Below are positions 9,670 to 24,535 of a stretch of DNA of 36,827 nt, in pieces. Each line of letters starts with the position of its first letter. Position 1 is the stretch's first letter. Source of the DNA: an uncultured Ruminococcus sp. (GTDB taxonomy: Bacteria > Bacillota > Clostridia > Oscillospirales > Ruminococcaceae). The notes beneath the pieces were generated by a model. It ran no database searches. It saw only the letters and a list, made by a program, of their open reading frames with translations, and was not told the origin of the DNA. The stretch spans positions 1 through 36,827 of the forward strand of contig CAMWOX010000002.1 of assembly GCA_947175975.1 (NCBI GenBank), in the 5' to 3' direction. A program made the position numbers and the translations under genes.

Positions 9670-9741
9670 AAAGTGAGAGTGAAAATAATATTTTTTGTTT
9701 TGCTTTCGGAATTTTAGATCATTCAGAAAGGAGGCGATCCG

Positions 9742-16703: not shown

Positions 16704-19361
16704 ATGAAGATCTGGAAAAAAGCAGCCGCTATGGCTTTGAGTGTTTCCATGCTGTTCAGTTCTGCTATGCTCCTGCCTAATACAGTGGCAGATGCAACGG
16801 ATTCTATAGAAGACAGCTATTCCTGGGGGACATTGCGTGTCGGCGGCGGCGGTTTCGTCTCTGGCATTGTGACCGGACAGAAAGAAATGTATCTGAGAAC
16901 AGACGTTGGCGGTGCTTATAAATGGAACTATGAAACTTCCAAGTGGGAGCAGTTGTTCGGATTTCTGACAGAGGCTGACAGAGGTCTGCTCAGTGTCAAA
17001 GGCATGGCAATTGATCCTACGGATGATGATACAGTCTATTTTCTCTGTGGCTGTGCGTATTTCTCAGGTGCAAAGACTGTTATTTTCAAAACAACGGACG
17101 GTGGAAAAACATTCACAGAGTCCGATGTGACAGAGCATATTCAGATACATGGCAACGGTGATGGTCGTGAATGCATTGAGCCGATTGCCATTGATCCGGA
17201 TAATCCGGATGTGATCTATGCAGGTGGTGACGTGACTGCCGGCAAATCCGCATTGATCAAATCCACGGACGGCGGTAAGACCTGGAATCCGGTTATCGGC
17301 TATGATGATCTGGGCTTGTTCCAGTATTCTTTGAAATATCCTTCCTGGACAGATCATATTGTCCGTGGCTCTGAAGATAAAGGCGAAAATGGCTATAATC
17401 AGCAGAACGGCATTGGCTGTATTCTGATTGAAGACGGAAAAGTCTATGTCGGCACTTCTGTGACAGGGCAGACGAACATCCATGTAGCGGATGTGGACAA
17501 AGACGAATTTACAGAACTGAGTGCAGACCTCCCGAATGAGAATTATCCCTGCTCAATTACAAGCGACAAGCATGGTAATCTCTTCTTTACGTATATTGCA
17601 GGACTTGCATTCGCTGGAGCTGCTGGCGGTGCTTACAAATATGATACCAAAGCAGGCACAGTCACACAGTTTACAGATCTCACTAGTGCAATCGGTATGA
17701 TTGAAGCAGATGAAAAAAATCCTGACAGACTTCTGGCAAGAACCTGCGGTGTGTGGTCGGATCAGTGGTATGAAGAAGAATGGACAGACGGCAGCGTTGC
17801 ATGGGGCGATTATTTCTATCGTTCCACAGACGGCGGCGAAACATGGCAGAATATTACTCCCGGACAGGGCGAGACAATCTATGATGAAAACGGCTCTCAC
17901 AAAGAATTTGTTTCCAATCCGATTGATATAAACGGCTATGACTGGATCTACGGAAAAGCATGCCACTGGGGCAGCGGTATTCTTTTAGATCCCAGAGACA
18001 CCAATAGAATCCTGATGACTTCCGGTAACGGTGTCTTTGTCTGTGACAATGTCTGGGATGAAAAAGGTGTGCAGTTCTACTTCCAGCCGGATGGCGTTGA
18101 AGAAGTTGTTGCACTGGATTTTGTCAGTGTCCCAGGTGGTCTGAATTATTCTGTAATCGGCGACTATGATGGCTTTATTCATGAAAGTCCCGATAAAATT
18201 CCGCAGCAGTATCAGCCTAACATTGGCTCGACTTCTGCAATTGCCTATTGTCCGGCTGATACAAAAGTCATGGCTCGTGTCGGTGAACATGATGCAAAAG
18301 GCTATTATAGTCTTGATGGCGGCAAAACGTGGGAAGATTTACAAGTCCCGAATGGCGGCGGAAAAATTGCCATTACAAAATTAGATGAAAAGACATATCG
18401 TTTTATCAAAGCAAGCAGTGACAATGCTGCAATTGTTTATACAGACGATTTCGGCAAAACCTGGAATGAATCCACTGGACTGGAAGGTTCCAAGACAACC
18501 TATCCGCTTGTTGATCCGGAAAATCCTGCAATTGTTTACGGTTCAGGAATTAAATATAATTCTTACTGGTCTTCTGATACAACCAAAAAAGAGCCGACGC
18601 TTGATGATGCACAGTATGATTTTTATATCAGCACAGACTATGGTGCAACATTCAGTAAGACTGTTGTTGACAAATATGACGAATGCGACCATACAGGTGA
18701 TCTGGCATATATTACAAAAGATACCCTTGCTATGGCTTTAGGCTGGAACGGGTTATATATCATCACAGAAAGCGGAACAAAAGTTGAAAAATCTGATGTA
18801 TTTTACTGCAAGACAATCGGCTATGGTGCACCCGAAAAAGCAGGCGATCTGAATGCACTCTACATGTACGGTAAGCCAGAAGAGTCCGATCCGGAGGGGA
18901 TCTATCGTTCTACGGACGGCGGCAAGACCTGGATTTGTATCAATACAGAGCATATCTATGGTGGTACAGGCAACGGCAATTTCATTGTCGGCGACATGAA
19001 CGAATTTGGCAAGCTCTACATGTCTACCGTAGGATGCGGCATTGTCTACGGCGAAGTGAAAGGGCAGTCTGATCCGAAACCCACTGAACCCAAACCCACA
19101 GACGATACACAGGGGTCTACCGGTTCTGATGATCCTGAGATTCTCTGGGGTGATGCGGATGAAAACGGCAAAGTAGAGATCGTGGATGTTGTTCTTATGA
19201 ACAGAGTCTATGTCGGTATTGATAAGATTTCAGACTCTGGTAAGACAAATGCAGACACGGATCAGGACAGCAAGATCACATTATCAGATTCTATGAATGT
19301 TCTGAAATTGCTTGTGCATCTGCTGGAACAGAAAGATTTCCCAGTTTCTACTGAAACTTGA
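16704..19361 (+). CDS. Secreted GH74 xyloglucanase/endoglucanase-like protein with C-terminal type I dockerin
   Basis: 885 aa; signal peptide; SYSWGTLRVGGGGFVSGIVTGQKEMYLRTDVGGAYKW; repeated beta-propeller/BNR motifs STDGGKTW; dockerin GDADENGKVEIVDVVLMNRVYVG...NADTDQDSKITLSDSMNVLKLLV. Confidence 0.93.
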   Translation: MKIWKKAAAMALSVSMLFSSAMLLPNTVADATDSIEDSYSWGTLRVGGGGFVSGIVTGQKEMYLRTDVGGAYKWNYETSKWEQLFGFLTEADRGLLSVKGMAIDPTDDDTVYFLCGCAYFSGAKTVIFKTTDGGKTFTESDVTEHIQIHGNGDGRECIEPIAIDPDNPDVIYAGGDVTAGKSALIKSTDGGKTWNPVIGYDDLGLFQYSLKYPSWTDHIVRGSEDKGENGYNQQNGIGCILIEDGKVYVGTSVTGQTNIHVADVDKDEFTELSADLPNENYPCSITSDKHGNLFFTYIAGLAFAGAAGGAYKYDTKAGTVTQFTDLTSAIGMIEADEKNPDRLLARTCGVWSDQWYEEEWTDGSVAWGDYFYRSTDGGETWQNITPGQGETIYDENGSHKEFVSNPIDINGYDWIYGKACHWGSGILLDPRDTNRILMTSGNGVFVCDNVWDEKGVQFYFQPDGVEEVVALDFVSVPGGLNYSVIGDYDGFIHESPDKIPQQYQPNIGSTSAIAYCPADTKVMARVGEHDAKGYYSLDGGKTWEDLQVPNGGGKIAITKLDEKTYRFIKASSDNAAIVYTDDFGKTWNESTGLEGSKTTYPLVDPENPAIVYGSGIKYNSYWSSDTTKKEPTLDDAQYDFYISTDYGATFSKTVVDKYDECDHTGDLAYITKDTLAMALGWNGLYIITESGTKVEKSDVFYCKTIGYGAPEKAGDLNALYMYGKPEESDPEGIYRSTDGGKTWICINTEHIYGGTGNGNFIVGDMNEFGKLYMSTVGCGIVYGEVKGQSDPKPTEPKPTDDTQGSTGSDDPEILWGDADENGKVEIVDVVLMNRVYVGIDKISDSGKTNADTDQDSKITLSDSMNVLKLLVHLLEQKDFPVSTET

Positions 19362-20207: not shown

Positions 20208-23200
20208 TTAGTCGTTGTACAGTGCTGCCAGTCTTGTCAGATAGTCGTAACGATCCTTTGCATTGGCAAGTGCATTGTCAAACAGCTCTTCTGCACGAGC
20301 CGGATTCTGGCGAGCCAGTGCGTTGTAACGTACTTCGCCCATTAAGAAGTCCTTGTACTCGTCTGTATTCGGAGCTTTGGAATCCAGAATGAACGGGTTC
20401 TTGCCCTCTTTCTTCAGATCCGGATTGTAGCGGTACAGATGCCAGTAGCCAGCCTGAACAGCTTTCTTCTCTTCTGCCTGTGCAGTCGCCATACCGGTCT
20501 TGATACCATGGTTGATGCATGGTGCATAAGCGATGATGATGGACGGACCATCATAAGCCTCAGCCTCACGGATTGCTTTCAGACACTGGTTCATGTCAGC
20601 ACCCATTGCGATATGTGCAACATAGACATAACCGTAGCTCATAGCAATGCCTGCCAGATCCTTCTTCTTGACAACTTTACCAGCGGCTGCAAACTGTGCA
20701 ATTGCACCGGTAGGAGTTGCCTTAGAAGCCTGACCGCCTGTGTTGGAATATACTTCCGTATCGAATACCATGATATTGACATTTCTGCCGGATGCGATGA
20801 CGTGATCCAAACCGCCGAAGCCGATATCATAAGCCCAGCCGTCGCCGCCGAAGATCCACTGGGATTTTTTGCGGAGGTAATCTTTTTCAGCCAGGATCTG
20901 TTTAGCCAGTTCGCCGTCACAGTTGCAGTTCTCAATTGCAGCAATCAGCTTTTCAGAAGCCGGTGTATTTGCAGCACCATCATTCTTGGTTGCGAGGAAC
21001 TCTTCCGCAGCAGCCTTGACTTCCGGATTCTTTGCGCATTCAGCAACTTTCTCAACTTTGGCAATGACACGGTTTCTCAGTGTTTCCTGTCCGAGGAACA
21101 TACCATAGCCGAACTCTGCGTTATCTTCAAACAGGGAGTTGCTCCATGCAGGACCATAGCCCTTCTTGTTGACTGTATAAGGTGTAGACGGTGCGGAGTT
21201 GCCCCAGATGGAAGAACAGCCTGTTGCGTTAGCGATATACATTCTGTCGCCGAACAGCTGTGTGATCAGTTTTGCATACGGTGTTTCACCGCAGCCAGCA
21301 CATGCACCGGAGAATTCAAGCAGCGGCTGTTTGAACTGAGAACCCTTGACAGTTGCCTCTGTGAATTTCGCAGTGACTTCCGGCTTGATGTCCTTGGTTG
21401 TGCCGTAATCGAATGCTGCCTGCTGATCGAGCTGTGTCTCCAGAGGCTTCATTACGAGTGTATCTGCTTTCTTGTTTGCCGGGCAGATATTTGCACATAC
21501 GCCACAGCCTGTGCAGTCCAGAACGGAAACTGTCATGCCGAATTTCAGATCGCCGATAGCGGGTTTCATTGCAGCGAGCTTCATAGATGCCGGAGCTGCT
21601 TCTGCCTCTTCTGCTGTGAGTGTTACCGGACGAAGTACAGCGTGCGGACATACATAAGCACACTGGTTGCACTGGATGCAGGTATCGGGATTCCATACCG
21701 GAACAGTAACAGCGATGCCACGTTTTTCAAATGCGGAAGAACCAGACGGAGATGTACCGTCAGCCAGATCCACAAAAGTAGAAACAGGGAGTTTGTCGCC
21801 TTGCTGTGCGTTGCACGGAATCTGAACATTATTAACGAAATTCTCAAGTGCCTTGTTTTCACAAGTAACTTTGGACATACCCATAGGTGTGTCTTCTGCG
21901 TCTTTCCAGGATTCTGGAACTGTTACTTCTACGAGACCCTTGTAGCCGGCATCGATTGCATTCCAGTTCTTCTCAACAACGTCATGTCCTTTCTTGGAAT
22001 AGGACATTTCCGCAGCGTCTTTCATGTACTGGAGAGCATCTTCAAACGGGATAATATCAGCGAGCTTGAAGAATGCAGACTGGAGAATTGTATTAATTCT
22101 TGTACCCATGCCAGTTTCCTGACCGAGTTTTACACCGTTTACTGTGTAGAATTTAATATCATTCTGTGCAATGTATCTCTTAACCTGTCCGGGGAGATTC
22201 TTTTCCAGACCCTCAGCATCCCAGATGGTATTCAGCAGGAATGTGCCGCCCGGCTTAATGTCAGATACCATGTCGTATTTGTCGATATAGCTCTGGTTAT
22301 GACATGCCACAAAGTCTGCCTTGTTGATCAGATATGTAGATTTGATCGGTGTATCGCCGAAACGCAGGTGAGATACGGTAACACCGCCGGATTTCTTGGA
22401 GTCATAGGAGAAATATGCCTGTGCGTATTTATCCGTATGATCGCCGATGATCTTGATGGAGTTCTTGTTTGCACCAACTGTACCATCAGAGCCGAGCCCC
22501 CAGAATTTGCAGGAGATTGTGCCTGCCGGAGCTGTATCAGGGCTGAAAGAATCATCCAGAGACAGATTTGTCACATCATCCACGATACCGAGTGTGAAAC
22601 GCTTTTTTTCTGTATTCTTGAAGACTGCAATAATCTGATTCGGTGTTGTGTCTTTAGAACCCAGACCATAACGACCGGTGTAGATCTTGACAGCATCAAA
22701 TTTCGTGTCTTTCAGAGCTGCAACAACATCCAGGTACAGCGGTTCACCAAGAGAGCCGGGTTCTTTTGTTCTGTCGAGTACAGAAATTTGCTTTACAGTA
22801 TCCGGCAGAGCCTCTACCAGTTTGTCTGCTACAAACGGTCTGTACAGACGTACACGGATCATACCGTATTTGCCGCCGTTTGCGTTCAGATAATCTACCG
22901 TTTCTTCTACTGTGTCCATGACAGAACCCATTGCAATAATCACATGTTCTGCATCCGGCGCACCGTAGTAGTTGAACAGTTTGTAGTCTGTGCCGATTTT
23001 GGCATTGACTTTGTCCATATATTTTTCAACGACTGCCGGAAGTGCATCATAATATTTATTACATGCTTCACGAGCCTGGAAGAAAATATCAGGATTCTGT
23101 GCAGAGCCTCTCAGCACCGGATGATTCGGGTTCAGAGCCTGGTCACGGAATGCCTGTGCTGCTTCCTTGTTGAGCATCTCATCGAGATCTGCATCATCCC

Positions 23201-23756
23201 ATACTTCGATTTTCTGAATTTCATGAGAAGTTCTGAAACCATCGAAGAAATGCAGGAACGGTACACGTCCCTCAATTGTTGCCAGATGTGCCACTGCACC
23301 CAGATCCATTACTTCCTGAGGATTGGAAGAGCAGAGCATTGCATAGCCTGTCTGACGGCATGCATACACGTCAGAATGATCGCCGAAGATGTTCAGTGCA
23401 TGGGAAGATACGCATCTTGCAGATACATGAATAACATTCGGGAGCAGTTCGCCTGCGATTTTATACATGTTCGGGATCATGAGCAGCAAGCCCTGAGAAG
23501 CTGTATAAGTTGTTGTCAATGCACCTGCGGACAGAGAGCCGTGAACTGTGCCGGCAGCACCTGCTTCAGACTGCATTTCTACGACATTAACAGGGTCACC
23601 GAACAGATTTTTCTTGTCCTTTGCAGCCCACTGGTCTGTGACTTCCGCCATAACAGAAGAAGGTGTAATCGGATAGATTGCAGAGACATCTGTAAACGGA
23701 TAAGATGCCCATGCGGCAGCGTTATTGCCGTCCATGGTTTTCATTTTTCTAGCCAT
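20208..23756 (-). CDS. nifJ: Pyruvate:ferredoxin (flavodoxin) oxidoreductase
   Basis: ~1182 aa from ATG 23756 (GGAGGAAATTTTCCA); MARKMKTMDGNNAAAWASYPFTDVSAIYPITPSS; 4Fe-4S motifs CIQCNQCAYVCPHAV and CTGCGVCANICP; TPP-domain CAGCGETPYAK, GGDGWAYDIGFGGLDHV. Confidence 0.97.
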   Translation of the reverse strand: MARKMKTMDGNNAAAWASYPFTDVSAIYPITPSSVMAEVTDQWAAKDKKNLFGDPVNVVEMQSEAGAAGTVHGSLSAGALTTTYTASQGLLLMIPNMYKIAGELLPNVIHVSARCVSSHALNIFGDHSDVYACRQTGYAMLCSSNPQEVMDLGAVAHLATIEGRVPFLHFFDGFRTSHEIQKIEVWDDADLDEMLNKEAAQAFRDQALNPNHPVLRGSAQNPDIFFQAREACNKYYDALPAVVEKYMDKVNAKIGTDYKLFNYYGAPDAEHVIIAMGSVMDTVEETVDYLNANGGKYGMIRVRLYRPFVADKLVEALPDTVKQISVLDRTKEPGSLGEPLYLDVVAALKDTKFDAVKIYTGRYGLGSKDTTPNQIIAVFKNTEKKRFTLGIVDDVTNLSLDDSFSPDTAPAGTISCKFWGLGSDGTVGANKNSIKIIGDHTDKYAQAYFSYDSKKSGGVTVSHLRFGDTPIKSTYLINKADFVACHNQSYIDKYDMVSDIKPGGTFLLNTIWDAEGLEKNLPGQVKRYIAQNDIKFYTVNGVKLGQETGMGTRINTILQSAFFKLADIIPFEDALQYMKDAAEMSYSKKGHDVVEKNWNAIDAGYKGLVEVTVPESWKDAEDTPMGMSKVTCENKALENFVNNVQIPCNAQQGDKLPVSTFVDLADGTSPSGSSAFEKRGIAVTVPVWNPDTCIQCNQCAYVCPHAVLRPVTLTAEEAEAAPASMKLAAMKPAIGDLKFGMTVSVLDCTGCGVCANICPANKKADTLVMKPLETQLDQQAAFDYGTTKDIKPEVTAKFTEATVKGSQFKQPLLEFSGACAGCGETPYAKLITQLFGDRMYIANATGCSSIWGNSAPSTPYTVNKKGYGPAWSNSLFEDNAEFGYGMFLGQETLRNRVIAKVEKVAECAKNPEVKAAAEEFLATKNDGAANTPASEKLIAAIENCNCDGELAKQILAEKDYLRKKSQWIFGGDGWAYDIGFGGLDHVIASGRNVNIMVFDTEVYSNTGGQASKATPTGAIAQFAAAGKVVKKKDLAGIAMSYGYVYVAHIAMGADMNQCLKAIREAEAYDGPSIIIAYAPCINHGIKTGMATAQAEEKKAVQAGYWHLYRYNPDLKKEGKNPFILDSKAPNTDEYKDFLMGEVRYNALARQNPARAEELFDNALANAKDRYDYLTRLAALYND

Positions 23757-23853
23757 TGGAAAATTTCCTCCATAAGAAATATTTTTTGTACTGCCTGCGT
23801 ATCCTGGAAATAATAGTTTCCTGTAAGACAAGCAAACAGTTTATGACATATCT

Positions 23854-24064: not shown

Positions 24065-24093
24065 TTGACGAAAGCCGTTTTTTGTGGTATCAT
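24065..24093 (+). promoter_or_regulatory. SigA promoter TTGACG-N17-TATCAT with no annotated gene downstream
   Basis: TTGACG 24065-24070, TATCAT 24088-24093; followed by 12-bp perfect palindrome AACACTAGTGTT (24094-24105). Confidence 0.75.
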
Positions 24094-24099
24094 AACACT

Positions 24100-24237
24100 A
24101 GTGTTCGTACGGTTTGTGATTCTACTCCCGTATGAGTAACACTCGTTTTGTTGTCTCCTTTCTTTTGTTCTACACAAAAATTGTTCTGATTTTTTCTTAT
24201 TTCCCGACAGGGCTGTTTGCAGTCCTGTTATTTTTTT
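24100..24237 (+). ncRNA. Candidate small RNA (~138 nt) of unknown family
   Basis: Promoter at 24065-24093; 5' stem-loop GTGTT.GTACGG / CCGTAT....AACAC; terminator ACAGGGCTG-TTTG-CAGTCCTGT + TATTTTTTT at 24207-24237. Confidence 0.6.
24207..24237 (+). terminator. Intrinsic terminator of the candidate sRNA
   Basis: 9-bp stem (one G-U pair), TTTG loop, U-rich tail; no T-tract on the minus-strand side. Confidence 0.8.
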
Positions 24238-24506
24238 AGGGATTTGATCTTGTGTGCTGTGATAATTGTAAAATTTCCGGCATGGATTGTCAGCCGGATA
24301 TTTCCTGTTTCGCAATAGAAATTTTTTCCGTTCTGATAGATCAGACACTCCGGTTGCCGGATTGTTTCTTTGCAATAATTGACTATATCTGGAACAGCAA
24401 TCTGATCCAGGCTTAAATTTTTCCATATTCTGTTAGCACCTAATGCCGTTGTGTGGATCTTATCAAGACTGGATAGTAATATTTCTTTTTCAGATCGTTT
24501 ATCCAT
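24228..24506 (-). CDS. DUF3781-like protein
   Basis: MDKRSEKEILLSSLDKIHTTALGANRIWKNLSLD...VNYCKETI...GKNFYCETGNIRLTIHAGNFTIITAHKI; GAGGAG upstream. Confidence 0.6.
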   Translation of the reverse strand: MDKRSEKEILLSSLDKIHTTALGANRIWKNLSLDQIAVPDIVNYCKETIRQPECLIYQNGKNFYCETGNIRLTIHAGNFTIITAHKIKSLKK

Positions 24507-24535
24507 TATTTTTTTGATACTCCTCTTCCGCAAAC

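Follow-up and report, generated by a model that had tools for sequence, protein, structure and literature searches.

A probable small RNA gene with an almost invariant core in the Ruminococcaceae, its candidate 5'-UTR target sites and its phage copies

A transcription unit between nifJ and a DUF3781 gene

The window analysed here, a stretch of 36,827 nucleotides from an uncultured Ruminococcus sp. (contig CAMWOX010000002.1), carries a compact plus-strand unit at 24065-24237, flanked by two minus-strand genes that both lie outside the RNA: nifJ (pyruvate:ferredoxin oxidoreductase, recognized by its PFOR domains; 20208-23831), which is divergent, and a DUF3781 gene (24228-24533; E = 6.7e-26), which converges on the terminator. 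A hexamer search located a sigma-70-type promoter, TTGACG-N17-TATCAT, at 24065-24093 (-35 at 24065-24070, -10 at 24088-24093), which matches 10 of the 12 consensus positions and has a TG preceding the -10. From the predicted transcription start, a 5' hairpin (AGTGTTCGTACGG...CCGTATGAGTAACACT; 24100-24143), delineated by folding and covariation, leads into an unpaired core of 33 nt (CGTTTTGTTGTCTCCTTTCTTTTGTTCTACACA; 24144-24176), the putative pairing region, which was delimited by conservation and has the same boundaries as the complementary 5'-UTR sites described below. The 27-nt 3' part of this core (24150-24176) is common to several genera by cross-genus comparison, and CTCCTTTCT at 24155-24163 equals the 3'-terminal nine bases of mature 16S rRNA (GGATCACCTCCTTTCT). 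A variable U-rich linker (24177-24205) connects the core to an intrinsic terminator (24206-24237) made of a 10-bp stem (24206-24229) and the T run ATTTTTTT. For the predicted transcript of 139 nt, the folding energy is -31.1 kcal/mol (z = -4.2), a value reached by none of 200 shuffles, and the predicted fold contains both the 5' hairpin and the terminator.

The promoter, hairpin, terminator and neighbouring genes were thus all present where the original prediction had placed them. It had also proposed an Rfam scan, which returned no match to the unit at the gathering threshold and chance-level matches only at relaxed thresholds; the RsaE/RoxS covariance model gave no match, nor did any of the 4227 models tested. 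No conserved open reading frame was seen in the homologue alignments. Three exposed C/U-rich stretches had been singled out as possible contact regions, and this stood for CTCCTTTCT, which lies in the conserved core, but not for CTACTCCCG in the hairpin loop or TTTCCCGA before the terminator, neither of which is conserved. The complement AGAAAGGAG at 9725-9733 is the sole other exact match within the window and is a generic Shine-Dalgarno (SD) sequence, as had been conceded from the outset. Elsewhere in the window, a plus-strand gene at 16704-19361 encodes a large protein that has BNR/sortilin-type repeats and, with a score at the edge of the cut-off, a dockerin-like C-terminus, which fits a cellulosome-forming Ruminococcus; members of the Ruminococcaceae are main fibre degraders of gut and rumen.

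Conservation across the Ruminococcaceae

A 186-nt element spanning the unit was recovered by BLAST from 31 of 36 genomes of the same genus (E 4e-8 to 2e-76). Across a wider species collection, exact matches to the 26-nt core are present in more than 119 contig stretches, a count that is a lower bound, including those of R. flavefaciens strains and R. albus 8. When up to three mismatches were allowed, 91 of 299 family genomes carried a 22-nt core with no mismatch and in a single copy each, and two further family copies differed slightly. Exact-pattern searches overstate the apparent invariance of the core; BLAST, covariance-model and three-mismatch searches agree on its conservation. Judged from these sequences, the core is common to more than 100 related species and almost unchanged. 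Among 391 genomes sampled across the class, the sense core was confined to the family of the window, with a single match beyond it (genome G1021), where a ribosome-binding site (RBS) lies on the opposite strand. There, at position 1500 of locus L500 (minus strand), a BlaI-like gene has an RBS that matches the core complement over 20 nt, which we take to be chance and a helpful caution.

The surrounding parts are conserved as parts of an RNA gene. Among 124 distinct homologues, the best hexamer pair had a spacer of 17 in every case (spacers of 16-18 were scored, with ties broken towards 17), the -10 was TATAAT in 116 and the -35 was TTGAC[G/T/A/C] in 122. In an alignment of 41 homologues, the outer eight pairs of the 5' hairpin were 93.8% paired, six of the eight showed changes on both sides, and the covariation score was equalled in none of 500 shuffles; at the foot of the hairpin, for example, A-U/G-C is replaced by G-C/A-U. 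The hairpin itself is exchangeable: in genera g28 and g33 it is a different one, and of the core only the 27 nt at the 3' end are retained, as is also the case in G035, from the genus of the window. A terminator hairpin whose sequence varies is found 3' of the core in nearly all homologues, and the core is largely unpaired in many, though not all, of the predicted folds. A nifJ homologue flanks 67 of 171 loci, the others having different neighbours.

Because the promoter and hairpin are conserved, the latter with compensatory changes, we regard it as nearly certain, on this comparative evidence, that the unit at 24065-24237 is a small RNA gene. The covariance analysis and the search for conservation in close relatives, both suggested with the original prediction, came out in favour of its free-standing small-RNA gene, which is strongly supported by the promoter, the covarying hairpin, the invariant core, the changing terminator and the unfixed gene context. 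The competing idea that the unit serves nifJ or DUF3781 as a cis element or leader, or is an unused promoter and terminator, can point to the frequency of nifJ homologues beside the unit; the RNA is, however, encoded on the strand opposite to both genes, and it persists unchanged where the neighbours vary, so that we give this idea next to no credence. The unit has its own promoter, an intrinsic terminator and no coding capacity and is conserved as an RNA, as is general for trans-acting base-pairing sRNAs; pairing with mRNAs encoded at other loci, the further mark of that class, is indicated by sequence complementarity in other genera but not in the genus of the window.

Candidate target sites and mode of action

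Candidate targets were sought in 398 family genomes with the pattern TAGAACAAAAGAAANNNGACAACAAAA, its centre left free and up to three mismatches allowed, and with the reversed pattern as a control. At least 23 sites beyond the sRNA itself were found versus 4 for the control (counts being lower bounds), and 20 of the 23 listed sites fall in sRNA-bearing genera. Those examined are mostly located in 5' UTRs, preceding the start codon by approximately 45-125 nt and lying 5' of the SD. Every tabulated site has stronger predicted binding than the best-scoring of 200 shuffles, and none of the 19 has GGAG in its centre, an absence that may reflect avoidance either of an internal SD or of a long perfect duplex.

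The strongest sites occur in the leader of an operon in which an uncharacterised gene is accompanied by one for an SPFH/Band 7 (flotillin-like) protein. In genus g222, six species carry one to three sites each in this leader, up to ~79 nt apart, and all but one of these sites are paired at 32 of 33 positions (about -45 to -46 kcal/mol). When the central three positions are set aside, 13 distinct sites show 32 changes, of which 30 are A to G, so that A-U becomes G-U and pairing is kept, and the remaining two break pairing; the A to G changes are spread over eight positions and several species. On inspection, the sites end exactly at the end of the conserved core and include no part of the sRNA's hairpin or terminator, which speaks against simple inverted duplication as their origin. 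Of the 17 g222 genomes with a flotillin gene that were searched, 6 had visible leader sites, several loci being too short to show them. Between the leader sites of two loci (L594, 2537-2728, minus strand in reverse-complement numbering; L605, 2491-2681), extra purine-rich stretches ACAAAAGAAAGAGACAT also resemble the core complement, one base short.

Further candidate sites precede a PadR-HAAS gene (two species), a GntR-ABC operon (three species of g267), an uncharacterised gene (two species of g251) and a serpin and an Hsp20 gene (one site each). Complementarity at these non-flotillin sites is less complete (26-30 of 33 positions), and their changes keep pairing in 7 cases and break it in 31. 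In the GntR-ABC operons (L599, L600 and L602), the promoter is followed by a palindrome, GTGTACTAC...GTAGTACAC, and then by the sRNA site; the palindrome is likely a GntR operator, and double control of the operon by GntR and the sRNA is possible. Within the genus of the window, a comparable pattern gave 15 extra sites versus 19 for the control, hence no enrichment, and most were inside genes; no extended target was found in the window's own genome, which is 78% complete. One candidate target in this genus was noted in G032, the nearest relative of the window, where a single 5'-UTR site (L621 position 1236, minus strand; -25 kcal/mol) directly follows a promoter and precedes a gene for a secreted protein.

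Pairing of the RsaE/RoxS type with SD regions, as the original prediction had envisaged, was not supported. In G145, an sRNA-bearing genome whose SDs are mostly GAAAGGA/AAAGGAG, the core scored a mean of -13.0 kcal/mol at 1,288 translation starts compared with -12.8 +/- 0.56 for flank-shuffled cores, and a genome-wide scan gave few sites. The best RBS matches in single genomes, at an antiporter gene in G145 and degV in G173, are missing from the orthologous genes. Sites of 22 nt with one mismatch were recorded at the RBS of degV in G173, a GntR gene in G650 and an ABC gene in G519. No perfect RBS-plus-start target (GAAAGGAGACAACAAAATG) was found apart from the sRNA itself, and no strong complement to rRNA was seen in the part of G145 examined. 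The generic SD complementarity of the core is real as a matter of sequence, yet it provides no evidence of targeting, given the shuffled-flank null, the RBS matches that are not kept and the comparable match in another family. The broader expectation of action in trans by pairing was supported to the extent that 5'-UTR sites in other genera match most or all of the core.

The complementary sites argue that the RNA is probably a trans-acting antisense sRNA with nearly full-core 5'-UTR sites, a reading that draws on genera other than that of the window. Positions 24100-24237 would accordingly encode a stand-alone RNA of ~135-140 nt, consisting of the 5' hairpin, the 33-nt unpaired core and the terminator, whose core would pair with complementary 5'-UTR sites in a small, lineage-dependent set of mRNAs; this pairing would take place in cells and alter mRNA stability or translation. 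As the sites lie close to the 5' ends of the mRNAs, do not cover the SD and are always free of GGAG, we lean towards control of mRNA decay or of 5'-UTR folding, for example through 5'-end protection, rather than direct SD masking, a guess that we would put at about even.

Comparison with known systems bears on the first of the alternatives. Streptococcus csRNAs of the CiaRH regulon possess a conserved unpaired region between two stem-loops that is complementary to the SD, are defined by CiaR-type promoters (TTTAAG-N5-TTTAAG) and carry a CAU anti-start codon in 53 of 61 cases (PMC3091779). The Ruminococcaceae sRNA shares this layout and SD complementarity, but the CiaR promoter is absent from all of its loci, the 33-nt core contains CTCCTTTCT and lacks CAU, each genome carries a single copy and the supported targets stay clear of the SD; with promoter and anti-start codon both absent, it does not qualify as a csRNA. 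In Staphylococcus and Bacillus, RsaE/RoxS is likewise a Firmicute sRNA with a C/U-rich single-stranded motif, and RoxS can act at mRNA 5' ends too; its C-rich motifs are short, however, whereas here a frozen core of 27-33 nt is found, and no Rfam match. That the core nevertheless masks the SDs of many mRNAs and blocks initiation, as csRNAs or RsaE would, seems unlikely to us. Such masking would be in keeping with the 16S 3' end held in the core, with the common SDs of G145 and with the one-mismatch RBS sites at the degV, GntR and ABC genes, but it sits poorly with a core that performs no better than flank-shuffled cores, with degV and antiporter matches absent from orthologs, with a similar RBS match in G1021, of another family and without the sRNA, and with well-supported sites that avoid GGAG and lie upstream of the SD.

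Two other readings concern what the core or its complements might bind. The core could mimic the 16S 3' tail as a decoy or scaffold for a protein or nuclease, with phage copies titrating it; the shared tail, a core frozen while scaffolds change and the phage copies beside initiator-type tRNA-Met described below would all suit such a role, which we nonetheless consider highly improbable, since conservation extends well past the nine shared bases and matches the boundaries of the complementary 5'-UTR sites. The leader arrays, for their part, could be sponges that titrate the sRNA instead of regulated targets. This gains some appeal from the tandem arrangement of up to three sites, ~79 nt apart, whose central mismatch is constant, and the RoxS sponge (PMC8216469) similarly has sites complementary to the sRNA pairing region, though here the sites are tandem, nearly full-core and within an operon leader. 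Against it, the other sites are single and lie in ordinary 5' UTRs near promoters, and sponging could coexist with regulation; as an exclusive account it has a low probability. The preferred reading, antisense pairing at 5'-UTR sites, concerns an sRNA that is widespread and single-copy, with a frozen core and candidate targets whose base changes keep pairing, and these make its mode of action directly testable. No published sRNA of this kind in Ruminococcaceae was found in the papers searched, though it could be among the 3,161 candidate structured RNAs that have been listed from human microbiomes.

Phage copies of the core

IMG/VR contigs also carry the core (viral contigs L259, L261-L278, L280, L281, L283, L284, L286, L287, L421 and L487). 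After removal of duplicates there are 27 distinct viral copies; three of these resemble chance hits inside genes, leaving ~24 phage contigs. Matches in INPHARED phages and PLSDB plasmids were at chance level only. A tRNA gene lies 41-72 nt downstream of the core in 18 viral copies (15 tRNA-Met, two tRNA-Leu and one tRNA-Ser), and the tRNA-Met genes inspected are of the initiator type as read by eye, nearly all having the 1/72 mismatch, the A11-U24 pair and the CUCAUAA loop. In four contigs (L259, L262, L268 and L269), a 39-40-nt tRNA-like acceptor/T-arm minihelix replaces the tRNA after the core, ending in CCA in three of them (fold z about -3.7 to -3.9). Among 176 distinct host-set copies, none has a neighbouring tRNA that could serve in processing as in the phages. 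The 5' scaffolds of the phage units are unrelated to the host hairpin, and in most predicted folds the phage core is unpaired or largely unpaired. The unit adjoins a late-type transcription regulator (phrog_36) in three phages and precedes terminase genes in two of them.

This arrangement suggests that tRNA processing by RNase P may free the 3' end of the phage RNA, and the presence of the core in unrelated scaffolds suggests that phages exploit the same RNA code. A fuller scenario, which we offer tentatively and think rather doubtful as a whole, is that host and phage share an RNA module consisting of an invariant core of ~20-27 nt in swappable scaffolds. The host would use it to control envelope-type operons via near-full-core 5'-UTR sites, with tandem sites in some operons titrating the RNA, and the phage copy, placed between late regulator and terminase and trimmed by RNase P at the tRNA or tRNA-like hairpin, would rewrite the same regulon during infection. 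The idea that core-bearing phages use other SD types found no support, with AAAGGA-type and GGAGG-type SDs making up 11% and 27%, respectively, versus 14% and 24% in host loci. In two of the contigs (L274 and L275), the core directly follows a promoter and a terminator is present without a tRNA.
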